The position numbers and the translations under genes were made by a program. Shown here one piece after another: positions 1,188 to 9,301 of a stretch of 9,301 nucleotides of DNA (the first letter of the stretch is position 1; the number at the start of each line of letters is the position of its first letter). This stretch comes from JALSIF01 sp026981635 [NCBI: bacterium] (GTDB lineage Bacteria > 4484-113 > JALSIF01), in NCBI GenBank assembly GCA_026981635.1, contig JALSIF010000268.1, positions 1-9,301 of the forward strand, written 5' to 3'. The notes under the pieces are model-generated. The model was not told the origin of the DNA. It did no database searches and was given only the letters and a program-made list of their open reading frames with translations.

Positions 1188-1196
1188 TGTTAGACT
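1188..1196 (+). promoter_or_regulatory. Extended -10 promoter of the rhomboid gene (leaderless type)
   Basis: TGTTAGACT combines a TGn extension (1188-1190) with the -10 hexamer TAGACT (1191-1196). Only six bases separate it from the GTG at 1203, which is about where transcription should begin. There is no -35 of note around 1168-1173 (GGTCCC). The TAG of the hexamer is itself an in-frame stop, so translation cannot start further upstream. Confidence 0.6.
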
Positions 1197-1202
1197 AGCG
1201 CC

Positions 1203-2195
1203 GTGTTCCTGGTCCCGCTGAGAGACGAGATCAGAAGCCGCACCGTCCCCTACGTCACCTACTCCCTGATCATCATCAATGTGATCATTTACCTCTGGCA
1301 GCTCTCCTTTCCCCGCATCGGCGAGTTTGCCGGCCTGGAGGCCTCGGTGCTCACCTTTGGCTTTGTCCCCATTGAGCTTGCCAAGGGGGTGGACGTAAAC
1401 CTCCCCACCCCGATTCCTGCCTGGCTGACCATCTTTACCTCCATGTTCATGCACGGGGGCTTTGCCCACATCCTGGGCAACATGTGGTTCCTGTGGATCT
1501 TCGGGGACAACGTGGAGGACCACCTGGGCCACGGTCTCTACCTGCTCTTTTACCTGCTTGCCGGAGTGGGGGCGGCGCTGCTTCAGTTTTTGGTGAACCC
1601 GGTCTCGGACGTACCGATGGTCGGGGCCAGCGGCGCCATCTCAGGGGTGCTTGGCGCCTACTTCATCATGTTTCCCGGCGCCCGCATCGTAAGCCTCTTC
1701 TGGTACTTCTGGTTTATCCAGACCATCGCCATTCCCGCCTACATCTACCTGGGCTACTGGGCGCTGATCCAGTTTCTGGCCGGCATGGTCTCCCTGGGGG
1801 CGGGGGCCAAGGGCGGAGTGGCCTTCTGGGCCCACATCGGGGGGTTCATCGTCGGCCTGATCTTTGGCTATCTGCTTCGCACCGGTCGCATCGGCATCAC
1901 CCGGAGGGAGGTGCTCTACCCCGGCAGTCTCAGGCCATCGGGGATGGAAATTGGAGCCACCGCACCAGACATCATGGCCGAGGCACCATTCGCCGATGAA
2001 CAAGAGCCCACCCCTGAGCCGGAGGTCAGCCTGGTGGCGGGGGACCCGAGGATTGAGGCCCTCATCGCCCAGGGCAACATGCGCCAGGCCCTGAAGCTTG
2101 CCCGCGACCTTCGTCTGGCTGCCATCCACCGGGACGACCTGGAGCTTGCCCGCCTCTACGACGAGTATGTGCGCTATCTCAGGCGCTACCTCTAG
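1203..2195 (+). CDS. Rhomboid-family intramembrane serine protease
   Basis: Polytopic membrane protease of 330 residues that cleaves transmembrane segments of other proteins; its substrate is unknown here. The catalytic serine lies in GASG (Ser143) and the catalytic histidine in AHIGG (His211). The family motif HGGFAHILGN near residues 84-93 supplies the conserved asparagine (Asn93). Hydrophobic segments lie roughly at 18-34, 75-103, 111-130, 137-157, 165-195 and 207-224, consistent with a six-helix rhomboid core. A tail of about 105 residues follows: first an acidic, proline-rich linker (about 255-280), then a charged helical stretch (281-330). This suggests a cytoplasmic regulatory or partner-binding tail. 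The GTG start is forced because the in-frame TAG at 1191 precedes it with no other start codon between. There is no Shine-Dalgarno sequence. The gene ends convergently with the IMPase gene, overlapping it by three to four bases. Confidence 0.95.
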   Translation: MFLVPLRDEIRSRTVPYVTYSLIIINVIIYLWQLSFPRIGEFAGLEASVLTFGFVPIELAKGVDVNLPTPIPAWLTIFTSMFMHGGFAHILGNMWFLWIFGDNVEDHLGHGLYLLFYLLAGVGAALLQFLVNPVSDVPMVGASGAISGVLGAYFIMFPGARIVSLFWYFWFIQTIAIPAYIYLGYWALIQFLAGMVSLGAGAKGGVAFWAHIGGFIVGLIFGYLLRTGRIGITRREVLYPGSLRPSGMEIGATAPDIMAEAPFADEQEPTPEPEVSLVAGDPRIEALIAQGNMRQALKLARDLRLAAIHRDDLELARLYDEYVRYLRRYL

Positions 2196-2989
2196 CCGGT
2201 GCGGGCCCGCCTAACTCCGGCGATCACCTCGGCCATCTTGCCGTGCAGTGTGGGGTTCGCCGCCAGGGGGTTGGGGTGCCAGAGGTCAAGCGGCCCTCCA
2301 CTGAGGTCGGTGACCACCCCTCCCGCCTCCTCCACGATCACCCACCCTGCCGCAACGTCCCAGGGATAGAGCTTCAGCTCCCAGAAGCCGTCAAACCGCC
2401 CGCAGGCCACATAGCAGAGGTCAATGGCGGCGCTTCCTGCCCGGCGGATGGCCTGGGCCCGGTGCATGAAGGCGGCAAAGAAGTCCAGGTTGTCTTCCTC
2501 GCTCTCGTGGACATCGTAGGGAAAGCCGGTGGCCAAAAGGGCACGCTCCAGCTCCTCCTCCGGGGAGACCCGGATGGGGCGGCCGTTAAGCAGGGCGCCC
2601 GCCCCCCGCTCGGCGATGAAGAGCTCGTCGTGGACCGGGTCGTACACCGCCCCCAGCACCACCTCATCCCGCCGCATAAGCCCTACGCTGATGGCAAAGA
2701 TGGGAAAGCCGTGGGCGAAGTTGGTGGTCCCGTCCAGGGGGTCAACCAGCCATAGAAAGTCGCTTGAGCCCTGCTCCTTTGCCCCTTCCTCGCCTACGAT
2801 GGAGTGGTCAGGAAAGCGCTCCCGGATGTAACCTGCGATGAACTCCTCCGCCTTGAGGTCGGCCTCGGTGACCAGGTTGATCTTTCCCTTGTGGCCGATC
2901 TCAGATTCCTTGAGGCGGCGAAAGTAGCCCATCACCACCTGCCCCGCTCCCCTGACCAGCTCAATGAGCGCTTCCCTCAGACTTGGCAC
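2192..2989 (-). CDS. Inositol monophosphatase family protein
   Basis: Mg-dependent, Li-sensitive-type phosphatase of 265 residues, the normal length for the family. Members hydrolyse inositol-1-phosphate or related substrates such as histidinol phosphate or fructose-1,6-bisphosphate; the sequence does not decide between them. The metal-binding motifs are all present: GEEG at residues 66-69, DPLDGTTNF at 83-91 and PWDVAAG at 209-215, followed by EEAGG. The start is GTG at 2989. The upstream frame contains no ATG, GTG or TTG before an in-frame TAA at 3032-3034, so this start is forced. It has no Shine-Dalgarno sequence and lies six bases after a TACAAT box. It is divergent from the DUF1858-like gene and convergent with the rhomboid gene. 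A suhB-like inositol phosphatase is the likeliest role, but this is inferred from the family. Confidence 0.95.
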   Translation of the reverse strand: MPSLREALIELVRGAGQVVMGYFRRLKESEIGHKGKINLVTEADLKAEEFIAGYIRERFPDHSIVGEEGAKEQGSSDFLWLVDPLDGTTNFAHGFPIFAISVGLMRRDEVVLGAVYDPVHDELFIAERGAGALLNGRPIRVSPEEELERALLATGFPYDVHESEEDNLDFFAAFMHRAQAIRRAGSAAIDLCYVACGRFDGFWELKLYPWDVAAGWVIVEEAGGVVTDLSGGPLDLWHPNPLAANPTLHGKMAEVIAGVRRARTG

Positions 2990-2995
2990 GGGCCC

Positions 2996-3001
2996 ATTGT
3001 A
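2996..3001 (-). promoter_or_regulatory. -10 box of the IMPase-family gene (leaderless type)
   Basis: TACAAT on the minus strand ends six bases (GGGCCC) before the GTG start at 2989. No convincing -35 lies 16-18 bases upstream. The expected transcription start coincides with or abuts the start codon. Confidence 0.55.
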
Positions 3002-3042
3002 GGTAGATGGGCAGAGCGAACTGGGTAGAAGTTAGGGTAGGC

Positions 3043-3067
3043 TAACATTAAGTGAGCCCAAAGGGAG
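3043..3067 (+). promoter_or_regulatory. Possible -10 and Shine-Dalgarno of the DUF1858-like gene
   Basis: TAACAT (3043-3048) is a plausible -10, and AAGGGAG (3061-3067) is a Shine-Dalgarno nine bases before the ATG at 3077. The layout resembles that of ndk, with a short leader carrying a ribosome site. No good -35 was found. A 5-bp inverted repeat, GTTAG/CTAAC (3031-3035 and 3042-3046), overlaps the -10. The Shine-Dalgarno is more secure than the promoter. Confidence 0.45.
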
Positions 3068-3076
3068 AACTGGGAG

Positions 3077-3307
3077 ATGGAGAGATTTCACAGCCAGATG
3101 ACCCTGAGCGAGGCCTTCGCCACCCACCCGGCGGCGCGGCAGATCTTTGCCTACTTCCACATCGGCGGCTGCCACCACTGCGCAGTGGACGAGTCAATGA
3201 CCATTGAGCAGGCCTGCCAGCAGTATGGCGTGCCGGTGGAGATCCTGCTTGATCAGCTAAACAGGCTCCCCACTCCCCAGAGGCCGGCCGCCAAGGAGGG
3301 GGAGTAG
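3077..3307 (+). CDS. Small DUF1858-like CxxC protein
   Basis: 76-residue soluble protein. The pattern is MTLSEAF, then HPAARQIF, then GGCHHC, then TIEQACQQYGV and a terminal helix ending LNRL. This resembles the DUF1858 / ScdA N-terminal-like / prismane-associated redox-disulfide family, in which a short helical domain carries a CxxC pair. The cysteines are Cys32 and Cys35, with two histidines between them. Members are often found beside hybrid-cluster proteins or iron-sulphur repair proteins, but no such partner is visible here. Its function as a stand-alone domain is unknown; redox sensing or metal/cluster handling is only inference. The ATG start has a Shine-Dalgarno. It lies 65 bases ahead of the phosphohexomutase gene and could be co-transcribed with it, although that gene has its own -10. 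Confidence 0.85.
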   Translation: MERFHSQMTLSEAFATHPAARQIFAYFHIGGCHHCAVDESMTIEQACQQYGVPVEILLDQLNRLPTPQRPAAKEGE

Positions 3308-3357
3308 GGCAGGGGAGGAAGGCCCTCGGGCGGGAATAAAACCTGTTTCCAAGGCAC

Positions 3358-3363
3358 TAGACT
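3358..3363 (+). promoter_or_regulatory. -10 box of the phosphohexomutase gene (leaderless type)
   Basis: TAGACT, the same hexamer as at the rhomboid gene, ends nine bases before the TTG start at 3373. Its TAG is an in-frame stop for the gene, so no upstream start is possible. No recognisable -35 is present 16-18 bases upstream. Confidence 0.5.
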
Positions 3364-3372
3364 TTTCTCGCC

Positions 3373-4794
3373 TTGTCACTCCGCTTTGGTTCAGAGGGAG
3401 CCCGCGGCATCCTGGGGGTTGAGTTCACCTACCGTGATGTGCTCATGGCCAGCCAGGCCTACCTCAGGGTGCTAGGAGAGGAGGCTAAGCGGGGCCTGGC
3501 TGTCGGCTACGACCGCCGCTTCATGGCCGAGTGGTTCGCCCAGACCCTGGCCAGGGACCTTGCCCTGGAAGGGGTGGCGGTCCACCTCACCGTCTCACCG
3601 GTTACCTCCCCGCTGCTCTCTGCCCTGGTCAGGGCCCGCCGCCTGGGGGGCGGGGTGATGCTTACCGCCAGCCACAACCCCTATCCCTGCCTGGGGGTAA
3701 AGTTCAAGTCCTCCGCCGGTGGGAGTGAGCCGCCCGAGCGGATGGCCCAGGTGGAGGAGGAGCTAAGCCGGCTGGGGGAGGTGAGGGTGGCAAGCCTTCC
3801 CGCTCTGCGCTCCGATGCCCTGGCGGCGGGGGCGGAGAACCTCACCCCGGCAGGCTACCCCAACTTCTTCGGCCTGCTTCAGCTTGAGCTTAGGCTCTCC
3901 CCCGAGCGGTTTGACCGCCTGGTGGTGGTTGACTTCATGCACGGGGCGGCAGCCGAAGTGGCGCCGGCAGTACTGTCCACCTACCTTCCCTCCGGTTCGC
4001 TCACCTACCTTCGCCGGGAGCGGGAGGTAACCTTCGGCCAGAGCAGCCCCGAGCCGGTGGAGGAGTTGCTCTCCCCCCTCTGCGAGGAGTGCAGGCGGCA
4101 GGGGGCGATAGGTCTTGCCTTTGACGGCGACGGCGACCGACTGGCGGTGGTGGACGAGGCGGGGGAGGTGTTGTTCAGCCACGAGGTCTACTCGGTCCTC
4201 CTCCACCACCTGGCAAGGGAGCGGGGGCTTTCAGGCACCGTGGTGAGGACCTCCACCCTGAGCAGGCGGATAGACCGGCTGGCCGAGCGGATGGGCTTTG
4301 AGGTGAGGCAGGTCAAGGTGGGCTTTAAGCATGTTGCTCCCGCCCTGATGGAGCCGGGCGTGCTCATGGCGGGAGAGGAATCGGGGGGATTTGGCTTCGG
4401 CTTCTACCTACCTGAGCGGGACGGGATACTCGCCGCCCTCCTCTTCCTGGAGGCGGTCCAGGAGAGTGGCATGGGGGTGAGGGAGTGGCGAAGCTTCCTG
4501 GACGAGATGCTTGGCCCCACCTTCTATCACCATCTGGACCTGCCCACGACCAGGGCAGGGGAGCTGGTCTCCCGGATCGCCGAGCGCCCACCTGGGCAGG
4601 TGGCGGGCCTGAGGCTTGCCAGGGTTGAGTGCTGGGACGGGGTTAAGCTCCACTTCGGGGATGAGGCCACCCTCCAGTTTCGGGCTAGCGGCACCGAGCC
4701 CCTGCTTCGCATCTACGCCGAAGCGGACAGCCGGGGGCTGCTCAACCAGCTTCTCCACCTGGCAAGGAGGGTGGTGGAGGAGTCTTCGGACTAA
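3373..4794 (+). CDS. Phosphoglucomutase/phosphomannomutase (alpha-D-phosphohexomutase)
   Basis: Cytosolic enzyme that interconverts hexose 1- and 6-phosphates, feeding sugar-nucleotide, polysaccharide or glycogen synthesis. All four family domains are represented in 473 residues, a usual length. The phosphoserine loop is TASHNP (Ser100), the metal-binding loop is DGDGDR (251-256), the sugar-binding loop is GEESGG (334-339), and the phosphate-binding loop is RASGTEP (437-443). Whether glucose, mannose or glucosamine phosphate is preferred cannot be read with certainty. The GEESGG loop is the type seen in PGM/PMM enzymes rather than in GlmM. The start is TTG. It is the only candidate between the in-frame TAG at 3358 and the conserved N-terminal RFGSEGARG motif, and it has no Shine-Dalgarno sequence. 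No clear terminator follows. Confidence 0.95.
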   Translation: MSLRFGSEGARGILGVEFTYRDVLMASQAYLRVLGEEAKRGLAVGYDRRFMAEWFAQTLARDLALEGVAVHLTVSPVTSPLLSALVRARRLGGGVMLTASHNPYPCLGVKFKSSAGGSEPPERMAQVEEELSRLGEVRVASLPALRSDALAAGAENLTPAGYPNFFGLLQLELRLSPERFDRLVVVDFMHGAAAEVAPAVLSTYLPSGSLTYLRREREVTFGQSSPEPVEELLSPLCEECRRQGAIGLAFDGDGDRLAVVDEAGEVLFSHEVYSVLLHHLARERGLSGTVVRTSTLSRRIDRLAERMGFEVRQVKVGFKHVAPALMEPGVLMAGEESGGFGFGFYLPERDGILAALLFLEAVQESGMGVREWRSFLDEMLGPTFYHHLDLPTTRAGELVSRIAERPPGQVAGLRLARVECWDGVKLHFGDEATLQFRASGTEPLLRIYAEADSRGLLNQLLHLARRVVEESSD

Positions 4795-5052
4795 TCATCT
4801 GCCGGCTGCTAGACCTGAGTCTTGGGGAAGAAGGTGGCCGTGATTAAAGAATGATGGGGTTTGCCTAAGTTTGTGTAGAAAGAGAAACTTGAGAGTCCAT
4901 GATGAAGGACATCTTGAAAGAGGGACTGGGAAGAGGATGCTTTCCTTTTCATCTGCCCACCACGGCTGGGGGATATTGCCCCCACCACCACTACGGGGCA
5001 TCCGGGGTGGGCTATTCGCGAAAGGCTTTGATACCTAGGGTAAGAGCTCCCC
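4795..5052. other. Gene-free convergent spacer with hairpins
   Basis: 258 bases between the ends of the phosphohexomutase and thioredoxin genes. I see no convincing gene here; short open frames on both strands have no family motifs. The first half (about 4840-4950) is purine-rich and visibly less GC-rich than the flanking genes. It contains an inverted repeat AAGTTT/AAACTT (4867-4872 and 4885-4890). The second half holds nested hairpins, listed separately. No U-rich terminator tract is visible on either strand. Confidence 0.6.
4955..5012. repeat. Nested inverted repeats in the convergent spacer
   Basis: The outer arms GCCCACC (4955-4961) and GGTGGGC (5006-5012) enclose a tight hairpin with arms GGGGG (4968-4972) and CCCCC (4979-4983) and loop ATATTG. 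The remainder, CACCACCAC then GGGGCATCCGGGG, could pair in alternative ways. The element sits where transcripts from both sides converge. It could slow or end transcription, or protect 3' ends, but it lacks the T-tract of an intrinsic terminator. Confidence 0.5.
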
Positions 5053-5376
5053 TCAGAGCAGGGTCTCAAGCTCGTGCTTGAGGCTGTGGTAGTCGCGGAA
5101 ACCCACCATGATCTTCTCCTGCTTGCCGTCCTTGAAGACCACCATGGTGGGAACGGCGCTGATGCCGAACTGCGTGGCCAGGTTGGGACTTTCGTCGGTG
5201 TTTACCTTGACCACCTCAAGCTTGTCCCCCAGCTCGGTGGCGATGCGCTCAATCACCGGCGCCAGCATCTTGCAGGGGGGACACCAGGTGGCATAGAAGT
5301 CAACCAGCACCGGCTTGGTCTTGCTGGTCTCAATGACCGCCTGCTCAAAGTCAAGCTCGCTTATCTCCTTGGGCAT
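5053..5376 (-). CDS. trxA: Thioredoxin (WCPPC active site)
   Basis: Cytosolic dithiol-disulphide carrier of 107 residues, the classical thioredoxin length, with no signal peptide. The active site is WCPPC (Cys32 and Cys35), preceded by VLVDFYAT. The conserved cis-proline lies in AVPT (Pro76), and the buried charge motif is VDF. The usual thioredoxin sequence is WCGPC. The Gly-to-Pro change is known in some thioredoxins and changes redox potential in studied proteins, so oxidoreductase activity is expected but its potential is uncertain. The ATG at 5376 is preceded by GGAGGAG (5387-5393) at a ten-base spacing. The gene has a leader of about 64 bases with a stem-loop and its own -10 box, and a probable terminator separates it from the upstream lipoprotein gene on the same strand. 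The gene symbol is by family. Confidence 0.95.
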   Translation of the reverse strand: MPKEISELDFEQAVIETSKTKPVLVDFYATWCPPCKMLAPVIERIATELGDKLEVVKVNTDESPNLATQFGISAVPTMVVFKDGKQEKIMVGFRDYHSLKHELETLL

Positions 5377-5386
5377 GTGAGGGTTT

Positions 5387-5393
5387 CTCCTCC
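5387..5393 (-). promoter_or_regulatory. Shine-Dalgarno of thioredoxin
   Basis: GGAGGAG on the minus strand lies ten bases before the ATG at 5376. This contrasts with the neighbouring genes that lack any ribosome site. Confidence 0.75.
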
Positions 5394-5415
5394 GCTTGGT
5401 TTTGCCTTTCTCCAG

Positions 5416-5441
5416 GTGGGCTACCTAGCTTACCAGCCCAC
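5416..5441 (-). other. 5' leader stem-loop of the thioredoxin mRNA
   Basis: Perfect 7-bp arms GTGGGCT and AGCCCAC (5435-5441 and 5416-5422) flank a 12-base loop. If transcription starts six or seven bases after the TAGACT box (5447-5452), the stem begins at the very 5' end of the mRNA. It would act as a 5' cap-like stabiliser or a regulatory structure. It matches no riboswitch family I recognise. Confidence 0.5.
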
Positions 5442-5446
5442 GCCAA

Positions 5447-5456
5447 AGTCTATATA
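5447..5456 (-). promoter_or_regulatory. -10 region of thioredoxin
   Basis: On the minus strand this reads TATATAGACT and contains both TATATA and TAGACT; the latter is the hexamer also found before the rhomboid and phosphohexomutase genes. It lies about 70 bases from the ATG, predicting a leader of about 64 bases. A possible weak -35 is TTTCCC about 16 bases upstream of TATAGA. Confidence 0.5.
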
Positions 5457-5483
5457 CCGGCCGGTCAGAGGGGAAAATCTAGC

Positions 5484-5505
5484 CGCTTAGCTAGACGGCA
5501 GGTAA
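5484..5505 (-). terminator. Probable weak intrinsic terminator after the lipoprotein gene
   Basis: On the minus strand, arms TCTAGC and GCTAGA (5500-5505 and 5488-5493) with the loop TAAGCG are followed at once by TTTT (5487-5484). It lies 82 bases beyond the lipoprotein stop and upstream of the thioredoxin -10 box, where a terminator would be expected. The stem is short and the T-tract is only four bases. It might instead be an operator for thioredoxin. Confidence 0.4.
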
Positions 5506-5586
5506 AAGTCCGGGCGAGGAAACTCCCTTAGACCACCTTCACCTTCGGATTTAAACTGCCAGGGAGGCTTTGCTCTCCTCTCCCCC

Positions 5587-6339
5587 TTACCTGCTGGCAT
5601 TCCCTGCCTGCGGTCGCTGCTTTGGGGAAGCACCTGAGCTCTTGGTGTGTGCCTTAATCCGTCTTTCCCAATCCTGTATTGAAGCCAGGCAGAGCTGGGC
5701 CCTGGGGGTCACGTAGGTGCCGAGGATATACTCGGCTATCACCCTACCTCCATCCCCATAGGCCCGCCAGTAGAAATAGTCCGGTGGGCAATCCGCCATG
5801 GCCTCTGGCCCACCGTTGTTTTTCAGGTACTCCCTGGCCTCTTCAACCGAGAGCAGATGAACCAGCAGGTCCCCCGGAGAGGGATTCCAGGCCTGCCAGT
5901 CAACCGGTCGGTCCCGGTAGAGGTTCCGTGGGACGGGAAAGAGGTTCCAATCTCCACCAATCTCGGCAAGCTCTTCCAAGCTCAGACTCTCGGGATCGCT
6001 GACCCCGGCCTTCAAGGCATCCACCAGTGCGTTACCCACCCCGTTTGGCCAGGTGACGATCTCCAAAAGCTGGGCCCTTTCCTGTTCGGAAAGCTCATCC
6101 CAGGTGGGATGCCCGGCAGCCGGTTCAATGGCCCCGAAGCCTTGTTTTACGTAGGGGAAACCCACGAAGTAGGACTTGAGCACTACCTCCTTTCGCGCAA
6201 GGGGCCAGTTGCGGGGATCGTTTGAACCCGAAGTGGCGGAAACCTTGGCAGCAGGGCCAGGCTGAGAGCTCTTGTCCGCCGCGTCGGGATTGCACCCCGA
6301 ACTGAAGGCAGGAATCATGAGCAGGGTTGCAAGAATCAC
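5587..6339 (-). CDS. Predicted lipoprotein of unknown function, start apparently frameshifted
   Basis: I do not recognise this protein. From the in-frame GTG at 6339 it is 250 residues. It begins with a bare hydrophobic stretch, ILATLLMIPAF, ending in the lipobox-like SSGC (lipidated Cys16). A Ser/Pro/Gly linker follows (about 22-42), then a mixed-charge domain rich in Trp and Tyr (about 45-230) with two further cysteines (184 and 217) that could form a disulphide outside the cytoplasm. The tail is basic and polar. Export and lipid anchoring are inferred. The GTG has no Shine-Dalgarno and no basic N-region. Both exist 25 bases upstream at the ATG at 6362-6364 (MRGKKLR), but in another frame. 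Removing one base between 6340 and 6348 would join them into a textbook lipoprotein signal. The true start is therefore doubtful: sequencing error, recent frameshift mutation or, less likely, programmed shift. Confidence 0.7.
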   Translation of the reverse strand: MILATLLMIPAFSSGCNPDAADKSSQPGPAAKVSATSGSNDPRNWPLARKEVVLKSYFVGFPYVKQGFGAIEPAAGHPTWDELSEQERAQLLEIVTWPNGVGNALVDALKAGVSDPESLSLEELAEIGGDWNLFPVPRNLYRDRPVDWQAWNPSPGDLLVHLLSVEEAREYLKNNGGPEAMADCPPDYFYWRAYGDGGRVIAEYILGTYVTPRAQLCLASIQDWERRIKAHTKSSGASPKQRPQAGNASR

Positions 6340-6361
6340 GAGTCCTCAGCTTTTTTCCCCT

Positions 6362-6378
6362 CATCTTCTCAGCCTCCT
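6362..6378 (-). promoter_or_regulatory. Strong Shine-Dalgarno and ATG, out of frame with the lipoprotein
   Basis: AGGAGG (6373-6378) lies eight bases before an ATG (6362-6364) whose first codons give MRGKKLR, a typical signal-peptide N-region. The frame then runs on as Arg- and Cys-rich noise to 6125. The hydrophobic core needed next is in the adjacent frame. An in-frame TGA at 6346-6348 in that adjacent frame rules out a simple length change in the upstream A6 or G4 runs. Confidence 0.75.
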
Positions 6379-6408
6379 ATTCTTGGCTTAGCTAATCTTT
6401 TCATCTCT

Positions 6409-6431
6409 GCTCTATAGGCAACCTATAGAGC
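6409..6431. promoter_or_regulatory. 23-bp perfect palindrome, candidate operator
   Basis: Perfect 10-bp arms GCTCTATAGG (6409-6418) and CCTATAGAGC (6422-6431) flank a 3-base centre, CAA. It is about 45 bases upstream of the lipoprotein ATG in the divergent lipoprotein/dnaG region. The size and symmetry suit a dimeric transcription factor. The arms contain TATAG, so it may overlap a promoter. It has no T-tract, and its position between divergent genes argues against a terminator. No second copy was noticed in the window. Confidence 0.6.
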
Positions 6432-6459
6432 TATTATGGAAAATACCTTAGCAACAAGC

Positions 6460-6479
6460 ATGGGATACTTTCCTCCCAT
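6460..6479. repeat. Short inverted repeat in the lipoprotein/dnaG region
   Basis: Six-base arms ATGGGA (6460-6465) and TCCCAT (6474-6479) are spaced by eight bases. It lies about 30 bases from the longer palindrome. It could be another protein-binding site or chance. Confidence 0.3.
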
Positions 6480-6578
6480 CTCATTGCCCTCCTCAATGTA
6501 GTTAATCTAATTGTAACTGACTCTTGGCCGGATGTCAACCATGAGAGATGTCATTTGAAAACCTAGCCTACTAAACAT

Positions 6579-6607
6579 TTGACGGCCCCTTAAGTTGGGG
6601 CTATACT
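6579..6607 (+). promoter_or_regulatory. Canonical sigma70-type promoter of dnaG
   Basis: -35 TTGACG (6579-6584), exactly 17 bases, then -10 TATACT (6602-6607). This is the best consensus promoter in the window. The predicted transcription start (about 6613-6617) is at most a few bases before the GTG at 6618, so the mRNA should be leaderless or nearly so. Two GATGTCA direct repeats lie upstream (6531-6537 and 6547-6553). Confidence 0.8.
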
Positions 6608-6617
6608 TCCCCTTGCA

Positions 6618-8471
6618 GTGTCGGTCTTTGATGAGATCCGCGCCCGGGCCGACCTCCTGGAGGAGGTCAGGCGGGTAAGCCGCAAGGTGGTAAGGCGGGG
6701 GCGAAGCTGGTACGCCCTCTGCCCCTTCCACAACGAAAAGACCCCCAGCCTCAGCGTTGACCCGGTTAAGGGCCTGTGGCACTGCTTCGGCTGCGAGCGG
6801 GGCGGCGACGTAATCGGGTTTGTGGCCGAGGCGGAGCACCTGGACTATGTGGAGGCGGCAAAGCTCCTCGCCGAGCGGCTGGGCATCCCTTGGAAAAGTT
6901 CTGCCCGCTCGGGGGGAGAGCTTGACCGGATGAGGAAGGCGATGGCCCGGGCCCAGCAGGTCTTCAGCGAGGAGCTTCGCGGGACCAGCCACGGGGTCAA
7001 GGTGAGGCAATACCTGCGCTCGCGGGGGATAGATGAAAAGCTTGCTGCCGAGTTCGGCCTGGGCACCACCCCCCAGGGGCTGGACAGCCTCTACCAGCGG
7101 CTGAGCAGTGAGGGCTTCCGCGAGGAGGAGCTGAGGAAGGCGGGCCTCATCTCGGTTAGCGAGCGGGGGCCGATTGACTTCTTCCGTGGGCGGCTTACCA
7201 TCCCCATCCACGACCACCTGGGCCGGCTGGTGGCCTTCAGCGGCCGGGCGCTGGCCGAGGGGCAGGAGCCCAAATACCTCAACTCCCCCGAGACCCCGCT
7301 GTTTCGCAAGCGGCGCACCCTCTACAACCTCTACCGGGCCAGAAACGCCATCGCTAGGGAGGGGGCCATCGTGGTGGAGGGCTACATGGACGTGATCGCC
7401 CTCCACCAGGCGGGAGTTGAAAACGTGGTGGCCACCTCGGGGACCGCCCTGTCGGTGGAGCACGCCAGGCAGCTTGGCCGGCTCACCGACCGCATCTACC
7501 TCTGCTTTGACGGCGACCCGGCCGGGGTGAAGGCGGCCTTCAGGGCGGCGCTCAGGTTCCTGGAAGCAGACCTCGTCCCTCGCATCGTGCTGCTTCCAGA
7601 AGGGATGGACCCCGACGACCTGGTGCGAAGCCAGGGCAGGGAGGGGTTTATGCGCAAGCTTGACAACAGCGTGGGGCCGGCATCACTTGTCGCCCGCCTG
7701 GCTGGCCAGCAGAGCGAAGACCCCACCGCCCGGCGGATGGCCCTGTTTGAGCTGGGAAGGGAGATGGTCCAGGCCACCAGTCACCCGGTGATCAGGGATG
7801 GACTGATTGGAGAGATGGCCTCGCTCCTCAAACTTTCACCGGAGGAGCTTAGACAAAGCTATCTTTCACCCTCCCAGTCTCGCGGGGGGGCAGCCAGGCC
7901 GGCGGGGCTGGTGAGGCTTGCCGGCCACGCCCGCTTCTCGCCTGAGCGCCAGCAAGAACTGGAGAGCGAACTCATAGCCCTGCTTATGTTGGCGGGGCAG
8001 GAGCTTGGTGAGATTCCAAGGGATGTGCTTGAGCTTGTGGAGGCCATCGCCTTATCGCCCCAGGCGGAGGAGGCGCTGAAACTAGCCCTGGCAGGGGAAG
8101 GGGAGCTTGTGGGCTTTCTTTCCAGCCAGCCAAGCGAGTTCAAGAAGAGGCTTAGTAGACGCTACCACCTGTTTCTGGAGCGGCTGGAAGCTTCCCCTAG
8201 GCTGGGGGTGGAAGGAAACGGTGAGGAGGGGACAAAAGGGTGGGAGCGCATGCTTCACCGAAGTCTGCTTCTTGCCGCCTACAAGCTTTATCGCTTTCAT
8301 CTTGATCGCAAGATAAATGAGCTTAGGGAGGAAATTAGTCGGCTCCTCAGCGGGACAGATCGGGAGGAGGGGCTTGAGGCCATCCGCCGCAAGCAGAGGC
8401 TTGAGCAACTCAAGAGAGAGATAGAAGGTGAAATCCGTCGTCTGATCAGCCGTCCCGAGGAGGAGGACTAG
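6618..8471 (+). CDS. dnaG: DNA primase
   Basis: Synthesises RNA primers at the replication fork, recruited by the replicative helicase. The 617-residue protein has the standard order. An N-terminal CHC2 zinc finger (Cys35, His38, Cys56 and Cys59, in CPFH and CFGC) is followed by the catalytic core with the TOPRIM motifs EGYMDVIALHQAG (catalytic Glu254) and FDGDPAG (Asp298 and Asp300). KYLNSPETPLF at 219-229 is the strongly conserved primase motif. The region after about 430 is divergent and helical with a charged coiled-coil-like end (about 560-617), as expected for the helicase-binding domain. The GTG start is forced: TAA at 6591 is in frame and no start codon lies between. The N-terminal SVFDEIRARADL fits the family. 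There is no Shine-Dalgarno and a strong promoter lies directly in front. It shares CTAG with the J-domain gene at the stop. No rpoD or rpsU neighbour is visible. Confidence 0.98.
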   Translation: MSVFDEIRARADLLEEVRRVSRKVVRRGRSWYALCPFHNEKTPSLSVDPVKGLWHCFGCERGGDVIGFVAEAEHLDYVEAAKLLAERLGIPWKSSARSGGELDRMRKAMARAQQVFSEELRGTSHGVKVRQYLRSRGIDEKLAAEFGLGTTPQGLDSLYQRLSSEGFREEELRKAGLISVSERGPIDFFRGRLTIPIHDHLGRLVAFSGRALAEGQEPKYLNSPETPLFRKRRTLYNLYRARNAIAREGAIVVEGYMDVIALHQAGVENVVATSGTALSVEHARQLGRLTDRIYLCFDGDPAGVKAAFRAALRFLEADLVPRIVLLPEGMDPDDLVRSQGREGFMRKLDNSVGPASLVARLAGQQSEDPTARRMALFELGREMVQATSHPVIRDGLIGEMASLLKLSPEELRQSYLSPSQSRGGAARPAGLVRLAGHARFSPERQQELESELIALLMLAGQELGEIPRDVLELVEAIALSPQAEEALKLALAGEGELVGFLSSQPSEFKKRLSRRYHLFLERLEASPRLGVEGNGEEGTKGWERMLHRSLLLAAYKLYRFHLDRKINELREEISRLLSGTDREEGLEAIRRKQRLEQLKREIEGEIRRLISRPEEED

Positions 8472-8968
8472 GTCTCTCTGCCCTCCGGTTCGGGCAGGCT
8501 TGCCACCAGGCTTAGCAGGATGCCGATCCCCACTGCCACCGCAAGCAGAGGGAGGGCCTTTAGGGCCAGGCCCGCAAGGGGGCCCATAAAGCGCATCATA
8601 AAGCCCATCCCCAGCAGGATGAGAACAAGGTTGAGCAGGCCGGCGAGGTTCTGGGGGCGGTAGCCAGATCCGCTTCCCCAGTGGGAGGTAGCAAAGGAGA
8701 AGAGGTCCTCCCAGCGTGGGGCCCGGGCCCCTGCTTGTCTTCCCGCCGAAGCGCCAGAGAGGATGGTCCACCTGAGTCCCCACCAGCGCCTGAGCAACTG
8801 GTATGAACGGGTAATCTCCTTGGCCCGCTCCTCGTCACCGCCGTGGTCGGGGTGGTGGGTGGCCATGAGCTCCCGGTAGCGCCGCCTTACCTCGCGCCAG
8901 GGAGTGTTGGGAGCAACCCCCAATGTCTCCATCGCCTGCCTTAACTCAGCCGGGGTGGGGAATCGCAT
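8468..8968 (-). CDS. J-domain protein with C-terminal membrane anchor
   Basis: 166-residue co-chaperone-like protein. Residues 1-65 form a J domain: [21 protein letters not shown] is helix I-II, HPD at 39-41 is the Hsp70-stimulating motif, and [13 protein letters not shown] is helix III. There is no Gly/Phe region, zinc finger or substrate domain, so it is not DnaJ itself. After a linker of about 40 residues come two hydrophobic segments (about 108-127 and 130-158), suggesting a membrane hairpin with the J domain in the cytosol, recruiting DnaK to the membrane. Its client is unknown. The ATG start is forced by an in-frame TGA at 8975-8977 and has no Shine-Dalgarno; a TATACT box ends eight bases before it. 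It is divergent from ndk and convergent with dnaG. Confidence 0.9.
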
Positions 8969-8976
8969 CGCAACTC

Positions 8977-8982
8977 AGTATA
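8977..8982 (-). promoter_or_regulatory. -10 box of the J-domain gene (leaderless type)
   Basis: TATACT on the minus strand ends eight bases before the ATG at 8968. No strong -35 is seen 16-18 bases upstream (CTGGGC region). Confidence 0.6.
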
Positions 8983-8989
8983 GCCCCTA

Positions 8990-8995
8990 TATAAT
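8990..8995 (+). promoter_or_regulatory. Consensus -10 box of ndk
   Basis: TATAAT, a perfect -10 hexamer, lies back to back with the -10 of the J-domain gene, only seven bases between them. The predicted start near 9002 gives a leader of about 25 bases. The -35 position (8967-8972) falls on the J-domain start codon and does not match consensus. Confidence 0.6.
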
Positions 8996-9026: not shown

Positions 9027-9301
9027 ATGGCAGAGTGGCAGCGGACCTTCGTGATGCTCAAGCCCGACGCGGTGGAGCGGGGGCTGATCGGCGAGCTAAT
9101 CGGCCGCTTTGAGCGCAAGGGCCTGCGCATCGTTGCCCTGAAGCTCATGCGGGTAAGCCGGGAGCTTGCCGAGCGCCACTACGCCGAGCACCGGCAGAAG
9201 CCCTTTTTCCAGGGGCTGGTGGATTTTGTCACCTCGGCACCGGTGGTGGTGATGGCCCTGGAGGGGGAGGAGGCCATCGCCCAGGTACGTACCCTGGTGG
9301 G
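9027..9301 (+). CDS. ndk: Nucleoside diphosphate kinase, 3' end missing
   Basis: Cytosolic enzyme that passes phosphate from ATP to other (deoxy)nucleoside diphosphates through a phosphohistidine. 91 complete codons are present before the window ends; the family is usually about 135-150 residues, so roughly a third is missing, including the catalytic histidine. The visible N-terminal half is typical: [18 protein letters not shown] with the conserved lysine at 12, [15 protein letters not shown], then HYAEH, KPFF and the [17 protein letters not shown] strand. The ATG is set by a Shine-Dalgarno and by the normal N-terminus. It is transcribed away from the J-domain gene from an overlapping promoter region. 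Confidence 0.96.

Follow-up and report, generated by a model that had tools for sequence, protein, structure and literature searches.

Predicted leaderless and short-leader genes behind TANNNT boxes in a genome from an uncultured class-level bacterial lineage

Leaderless genes were found in 207 of 953 bacterial genomes by Zheng et al. (2011, PMC3160421), who describe a TANNNT motif about 12 bp upstream in Actinobacteria, Deinococcus-Thermus and other groups, with average leaderless shares of 19.2% and 39.4% in the two named lineages. The StartLink study predicts leaderless transcription in 21.6% of bacterial species (PMC9581028). In Deinococcus radiodurans, Zhong et al. (2025, PMC12340547) report TANNNT 6–7 bp before the open reading frame in nearly one third of genes; the motif was tested as a –10 element, and a –35 element at 17 bp boosts it. 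For mycobacteria, leaderless translation is reported from a 5′-terminal ATG or GTG only (Shell et al. 2015, PMC4633059). Here we analyse a 9,301-nucleotide (nt) stretch of DNA, referred to as the window, from JALSIF01 sp026981635 (contig JALSIF010000268.1), in which five genes carry a TANNNT box directly before the start codon. The kind of expression that this arrangement predicts is already known from other bacteria; the lineage is new for it.

Boxes, start codons and spacings (the number of nt between the end of the box and the start codon) all lie exactly where an earlier reading made from the DNA letters, hereafter the sequence-only reading, had placed them:

1191–1196, forward strand: TAGACT, putative –10 box of the rhomboid gene; its TAG doubles as an in-frame stop
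1203–2195, forward strand: rhomboid protease gene, GTG start at 1203, spacing 6 (Pfam Rhomboid, E 7.6e-33)
2996–3001, reverse strand (read 3001–2996): TACAAT, putative –10 box of the IMPase gene
2192–2989, reverse strand: inositol monophosphatase (IMPase) gene, GTG start at 2989, spacing 6 (Pfam Inositol_P, E 9.1e-78)
3358–3363, forward strand: TAGACT box of the PMM gene; its TAG doubles as an in-frame stop
3373–4794, forward strand: phosphoglucomutase/phosphomannomutase (PMM) gene, TTG start at 3373, spacing 9 (Pfam PGM_PMM_I)
6579–6584, forward strand: TTGACG, –35-like, 17 nt ahead of the dnaG box, matching TTGACA in 5 of 6 letters
6602–6607, forward strand: TATACT, putative –10 box of dnaG
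6618–8471, forward strand: dnaG primase gene, GTG start at 6618, spacing 10 (Pfam DNAG_N, E 1.1e-36)
8977–8982, reverse strand (read 8982–8977): TATACT, putative –10 box of the J-domain gene
8468–8968, reverse strand: J-domain protein gene, ATG start at 8968, spacing 8 (Pfam DnaJ, E 1.6e-06)

The nearest upstream in-frame stop is 12 nt (rhomboid), 45 nt (IMPase), 15 nt (PMM), 27 nt (dnaG) and 9 nt (J protein) away, with no start codon in between in any of the five, as had been noted. The further claim that these starts are not a matter of annotation holds on the upstream side only. Later start codons exist downstream, the next at +78, +51, +66, +69 and +36 in the same gene order, and for the J protein the coding score favoured the +36 start over the boxed ATG. 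Support for the IMPase, PMM and dnaG starts comes from their Pfam domains, which begin at residues 4, 4 and 3 respectively. In line with the stated absence of a Shine-Dalgarno (SD) site, fewer than 3 letters match the consensus in rhomboid, IMPase, PMM and dnaG, and 3 letters in the J gene. At the genome's background rate of 11.6/168 per start (see below), at least five boxed genes among the eight tested in the window has p ~7e-5; the eight are the five boxed genes plus trx, ndk and a DUF1858-like gene, glyA being omitted because its start lies outside the window and a lipoprotein-like open reading frame because its start is in doubt.

We interpret the boxes as sigma-70-type –10 elements that would give leaderless mRNAs or mRNAs with leaders of 1–5 nt, beside genes with SD sites, and put the probability of this at roughly 0.86. 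The usual distance from a –10 box to the first transcribed base is 6–7 nt. A housekeeping (sigma-70-type) –10 element would here be set against the start codon, with the polymerase starting about 7 nt past the box. At spacing 6 the mRNA would then begin with the GTG or ATG itself, and rhomboid and IMPase are accordingly spaced for strictly leaderless mRNAs, as we predict for both. At spacings 8–10 the mRNA would begin a few nt ahead of the start, with a predicted leader of 0–1 nt for the J protein and probably about 3 nt for PMM and dnaG. Ribosomes, presumably as 70S particles, would initiate at the 5′-terminal RTG (ATG or GTG) without SD pairing. We infer the sigma factor, the transcription start and 70S initiation from the sequence of the boxes, their position, their statistics and their recurrence in orthologues. 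The sequence-only reading, which had called all five mRNAs leaderless, is thus supported in its main point and upheld in full for the two spacing-6 genes; for the other three, the spacings predict leaders of about 1–4 nt. PMM, with TTG at spacing 9, is the weakest and least certain of the five in view of the mycobacterial ATG/GTG-only rule (PMC4633059).

The window makes up contig 268 in a bin of 317 contigs and 1.745 Mb (85% complete, 0.7% contaminated), which we call G000; nine relatives, G001–G009, complete the class set of 10 genomes. No 16S match came from the bin, and its dnaG shares just 33–46% identity with the 80 named matches listed, which belong to several phyla. Gene-level counts in G000 come from 100 contigs, including that of the window (697 kb, 60% GC), on which codon usage called 523 genes, 522 of them having 60 nt upstream. 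A start was termed forced if the called start was the first after a stop, with no other start codon within 60 nt; this left 168 starts, the remaining 354 being set aside for the forced-start test. Genes were counted as boxed at spacings 6–11, and expected box counts were drawn from spacings 14–50, separately for in-frame and out-of-frame positions, with Poisson p values. Forced starts had 59 boxes against 11.6 expected (p 5e-23) and all 522 genes had 133 against 35.7, which bears out the proposed wide use of such boxes in this genome. Among forced starts the spacings peak at 6 (18 versus 3.0 expected), 7 (11 versus 1.4) and 9 (15 versus 3.0; 37 among all 522 genes). Boxes beyond expectation amount to 28% when only forced starts are considered and to 19% over the full gene set, so that roughly 19–28% of G000 genes are predicted to be leaderless or short-leader, most others having SD sites. 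Rhomboid, PMM and dnaG are three of the 56 boxed forced genes in the sample.

The same script found no excess in 200 kb of E. coli K-12 (11 versus 17.7 expected) or in an out-of-class genome, G012 (9 versus 17.2), and a clear one in 250 kb of Deinococcus deserti plasmid 1 (21 versus 5.5, p 4e-7) and in the class relatives G003 (28 versus 8.2) and G001 (29 versus 5.8). An annotation-free count of TANAAT-6-RTG over whole genomes, with the reversed pattern as control, gave 49 versus 2 in G000 and was at least 4-fold over control in 10 of 10 class genomes, the lowest being G006 (97 versus 24). Outside the class, the ratio had a median of 1.5 over 134 genomes; 10 reached 4-fold, six of them with at least 20 sites. 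Two of 16 named genomes reached it too, that of Rhodocyclaceae SKW65 (L074; 42 versus 0) and that of L061 (15 versus 3). The trait therefore occurs elsewhere as well. By this count the L074 genome and six others outside the class are likely further leaderless users: G027 (53 versus 2), G091 (47 versus 3), G118 (50 versus 6), G057 (42 versus 7), G110 (39 versus 7) and G126 (24 versus 4). The looser pattern TANNNT-6-GTG was uninformative across the whole of G000 (195 versus 180 controls).

The boxes also resemble promoters in their letters. Beyond TANNNT they follow the –10 consensus, with A at position 4 and A or C at position 5, and the commonest at forced starts are TAGAAT (10), TATAAT (8) and TAGACT (8). 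In 27 spacing-6 genes with TANA[AC]T, the two bases ahead of the start are C in 23 and 24 cases, and a pyrimidine stands directly before the start in 26; the corresponding figure for 395 unboxed genes is 155 (C 112, T 43). At spacing 6 the pyrimidine-purine step of the expected transcription start thus falls on the start codon. An extended –10 (TGN) was not evident in the base counts ahead of the box, and a conserved –35 was rejected on the counts given below, although five of the six strong-box genes that do bear a –35 match at least 5 letters and dnaG, with TTGACG at gap 17, has one.

Boxes and SD sites tend to exclude each other. An SD match of at least 4 letters accompanies 8/56 boxed and 79/112 unboxed forced starts (p 3e-12), leaving 48 of the 56 boxed starts with a shorter match. 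This exclusion is in part mechanical, since the two sites overlap. Control hexamers at the same place carried an SD match of at least 4 letters in 7/14 (TT...A), 4/10 (AT...A), 6/7 (TG...T), 9/11 (TA...A) and 1/3 (CA...T) cases; others were low, namely T...AT (4/30), which overlaps the TA...T box pattern itself, A...TA (2/14), TC...T (1/6) and TA...C (1/5). The 16S 3′ end in two class relatives is the usual CACCTCCT, so that SD and leaderless genes would coexist.

Gene arrangement gives a mixed picture. Divergent starts are boxed in 19/34 forced cases and 51/144 of all genes, starts less than 25 nt behind a same-strand gene in 7/34 and 15/108 (forced starts, divergent versus <25 nt, p 0.006), and starts at same-strand gaps of 25–60 nt in 17/31 forced cases. 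These rates fit promoters of first genes. Where no gene was called upstream, 11/37 forced starts and 21/87 of all were boxed. Pooling all groups at 25 nt or more gives 91/327 versus 15/108 for all genes (p 0.003). The cleaner-looking split of 36/65 versus 7/34 lacks the group with gaps of at least 60 nt, and we place no weight on it.

Orthologues of two window genes repeat the arrangement. IMPase orthologues were found in six of the nine other class genomes (38–54% identity), and all six have a TANNNT box 6–10 nt before a possible start: TATACT-10-ATG, TATACT-7-ATG, TATCAT-6-GTG, TATAGT-7-ATG, TATCAT-6-GTG and TAACAT-8-TTG. Box letters and start codon thus vary among them; in several the start could lie at more than one codon, and G007 and G008 are of one genus. 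For dnaG, eight orthologues had the start in view (that of G008, in pieces, was left out), and five have a strict box at spacings 7–11 (G003, G006, G002, G004 and G007). Those of G003 and G006, from one genus, read TATACT-8-GTG, and G001 has TATACC-6-ATG. No rhomboid, PMM or J protein orthologues were found in the retrieved stretches of the class genomes.

Several observations weigh against the promoter interpretation. A –35 match of at least 4 letters at gap 17 occurs in just 6/82 strong-box genes, and 33/168 forced starts have neither box nor SD. Spacing 9 shows no base that would mark the start, with pyrimidine-purine steps at box+7 in 8/18, box+9 in 7 and box+10 in 7 cases. Among the orthologues, the boxed IMPase genes of G004 and G008 also carry a 4-letter SD match, and the dnaG genes of G005 and G009 have no box. 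The gene-level excess in G004 is weak (17 versus 11.4, p 0.07; forced starts only, 5 versus 1.6, p 0.02). Starts at least 60 nt behind a same-strand gene are boxed in just 2/32 forced cases (15/110 of all), the lowest forced-start rate of any gene arrangement and a misfit, because such genes should own promoters; with them included, the forced-start comparison of all groups at 25 nt or more is 38/97 versus 7/34 (p 0.06). A possible explanation, offered after the fact, is that genes with upstream room use leadered promoters, and a leaderless promoter needs only a short gap.

Could the boxes reflect composition, that is, A+T-rich start regions in a 60% GC genome together with in-frame TAG or TAA picked up by the forced definition? 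In-frame positions do carry a double background (3.0 versus 1.4 per position), yet the 11.6 expected against the 59 seen is already frame-aware, and the out-of-frame spacing 7 peaks too. Being in frame does not raise the share of TAG/TAA boxes (50/71, against 41/62 out of frame), which likewise gives no sign that the box is selected to double as an in-frame stop, an idea we discarded. Boxes free of a stop number 16, 16, 10, 15 and 8 at spacings 6–10 in the sample, against about 6 per position at 12–24; their rise at spacing 9, though small, means that in-frame stops do not fully account for how common spacing 9 is in G000. With the E. coli and G012 controls lacking any excess, we reject chance or a stop-codon artefact, to which we assign almost no probability. 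It is also improbable, if less extremely so, that the boxes are secondary promoters and that the main mRNAs come from upstream, through glyA–rhomboid and DUF1858–PMM, with SD-independent or coupled initiation. Such an arrangement would suit the same-strand gaps of 41 nt between glyA and rhomboid and 65 nt between the DUF1858-like gene and PMM, and the rarity of boxes at gaps of 60 nt or more. Against it, boxes are most frequent at divergent starts, an arrangement that the IMPase, dnaG and J protein genes share, and the orthologues of IMPase and most of those of dnaG repeat the box and its place.

A refinement that leaves the promoter unchanged concerns spacings 8–11, at which transcription may begin 2–5 nt before the start, so that three of the five window genes would not be strictly leaderless and may initiate otherwise. 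We hold this to be somewhat probable. Spacing 9 forms a separate peak among forced starts, and the whole-genome TANAAT counts in G000 at spacings 6, 7, 8 and 9 are 49, 42, 28 and 51 (controls 2, 7, 8 and 6); moreover, PMM begins with TTG, a codon that mycobacteria are reported not to use at the mRNA 5′ end (PMC4633059). A longer discriminator could still set the transcription start at the codon, however, and the positional base signal is absent at spacing 9. G000 is the only one of the 10 class genomes in which TANAAT is as common at spacing 9 as at 6; in the other nine, the spacing-9 count is 0.22–0.61 of the spacing-6 count (G001: 230, 63, 56 and 51 at spacings 6–9).

The sequence-only reading had also proposed that non-ATG starts cluster in the leaderless genes. 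Taken over the whole boxed set the difference is not significant: non-ATG starts make up 23/48 boxed forced starts against 28/79 (p 0.19) and, among all genes, 52/101 against 111/256 (p 0.19). At spacing 6 the figure is 20/28 against 111/256 (p 0.005), or 9/15 against 28/79 for forced starts alone (p 0.09). In a pool of four class genomes, the SD-less starts at spacing 6 comprise 36 GTG, 23 ATG and 1 TTG, and SD genes 264 ATG, 138 GTG and 45 TTG, a GTG enrichment (p 2e-5) and TTG depletion (p 0.03) that keep part of the claim alive; G000 contributes 28 of the 60 spacing-6 starts and 256 of the 447 SD genes, and in G001 alone ATG (11) exceeds GTG (7) at spacing 6. RTG thus accounts for 59 of the 60, and the window's PMM is a TTG at spacing 9. 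A further idea, which we regard as rather unlikely, is that of two registers: spacing 6, where the mRNA would start at RTG, and spacing 9, with a fixed leader of about one codon that would tolerate TTG and would be expanded in G000 relative to its relatives, the GTG preference at spacing 6 arising because G is the preferred first transcript base. If so, start-codon choice would be partly set by transcription-start preference, and a 3-nt leader would be a distinct initiation class.

The genes that the sequence-only reading had contrasted with the boxed set are indeed ATG genes with SD sites. They and the box near one of them are:

3077–3307, forward strand: DUF1858-like gene, ATG, SD match of 5 letters, TAACAT 28 nt upstream; Pfam score under the family's own cut-off
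5053–5376, reverse strand: thioredoxin (trx) gene, ATG, SD match of 5 letters; no TANNNT box found within the 45 nt upstream
8990–8995, forward strand: TATAAT upstream of ndk
9027–9301, forward strand: ndk gene, truncated where the window stops; ATG, SD GAGGTG (Pfam NDK)

The putative –10 boxes of the J protein (reverse) and ndk (forward) stand divergent and back to back, 7 nt apart (8977–8995), and may represent overlapping promoters serving one very-short-leader and one SD-led gene. The lipoprotein-like open reading frame (GTG at 6339, reverse strand) has no Pfam match. At 6364 on the same strand, 25 nt from that GTG across a homopolymer run, an ATG with the strong SD AGGAGG begins what reads as a typical signal peptide in a different frame, suggestive of an indel, a fault in the assembly or a pseudogene.

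As a prediction, these results carry TANNNT-type leaderless expression into an uncultured lineage of class rank. In genomes of this class, gene finders built around SD sites may set start codons wrongly, and the GTG starts at spacing 6 offer a way to test whether start-codon choice is linked to the first base transcribed. G000 shares with the systems of Zheng et al. (PMC3160421) the motif, its position (first T about 12 nt upstream, equal to spacing 6), a high GC content and the mixture with SD genes, and its estimated 19–28% falls in the range of their averages. It differs from them in lineage and in its broader spacing with a second peak at 9. The dnaG gene of the window, with its –35 at 17, is like the boosted promoters of Deinococcus radiodurans, where the commonest box is TACACT (PMC12340547); in G000 TAGAAT, TATAAT and TAGACT lead among forced starts. 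GTG outnumbers ATG in the class pool, unlike in the mycobacterial system, G001 showing the reverse. PMM falls outside the mycobacterial RTG rule (PMC4633059), which the pooled spacing-6 starts without SD fit in all but one case.

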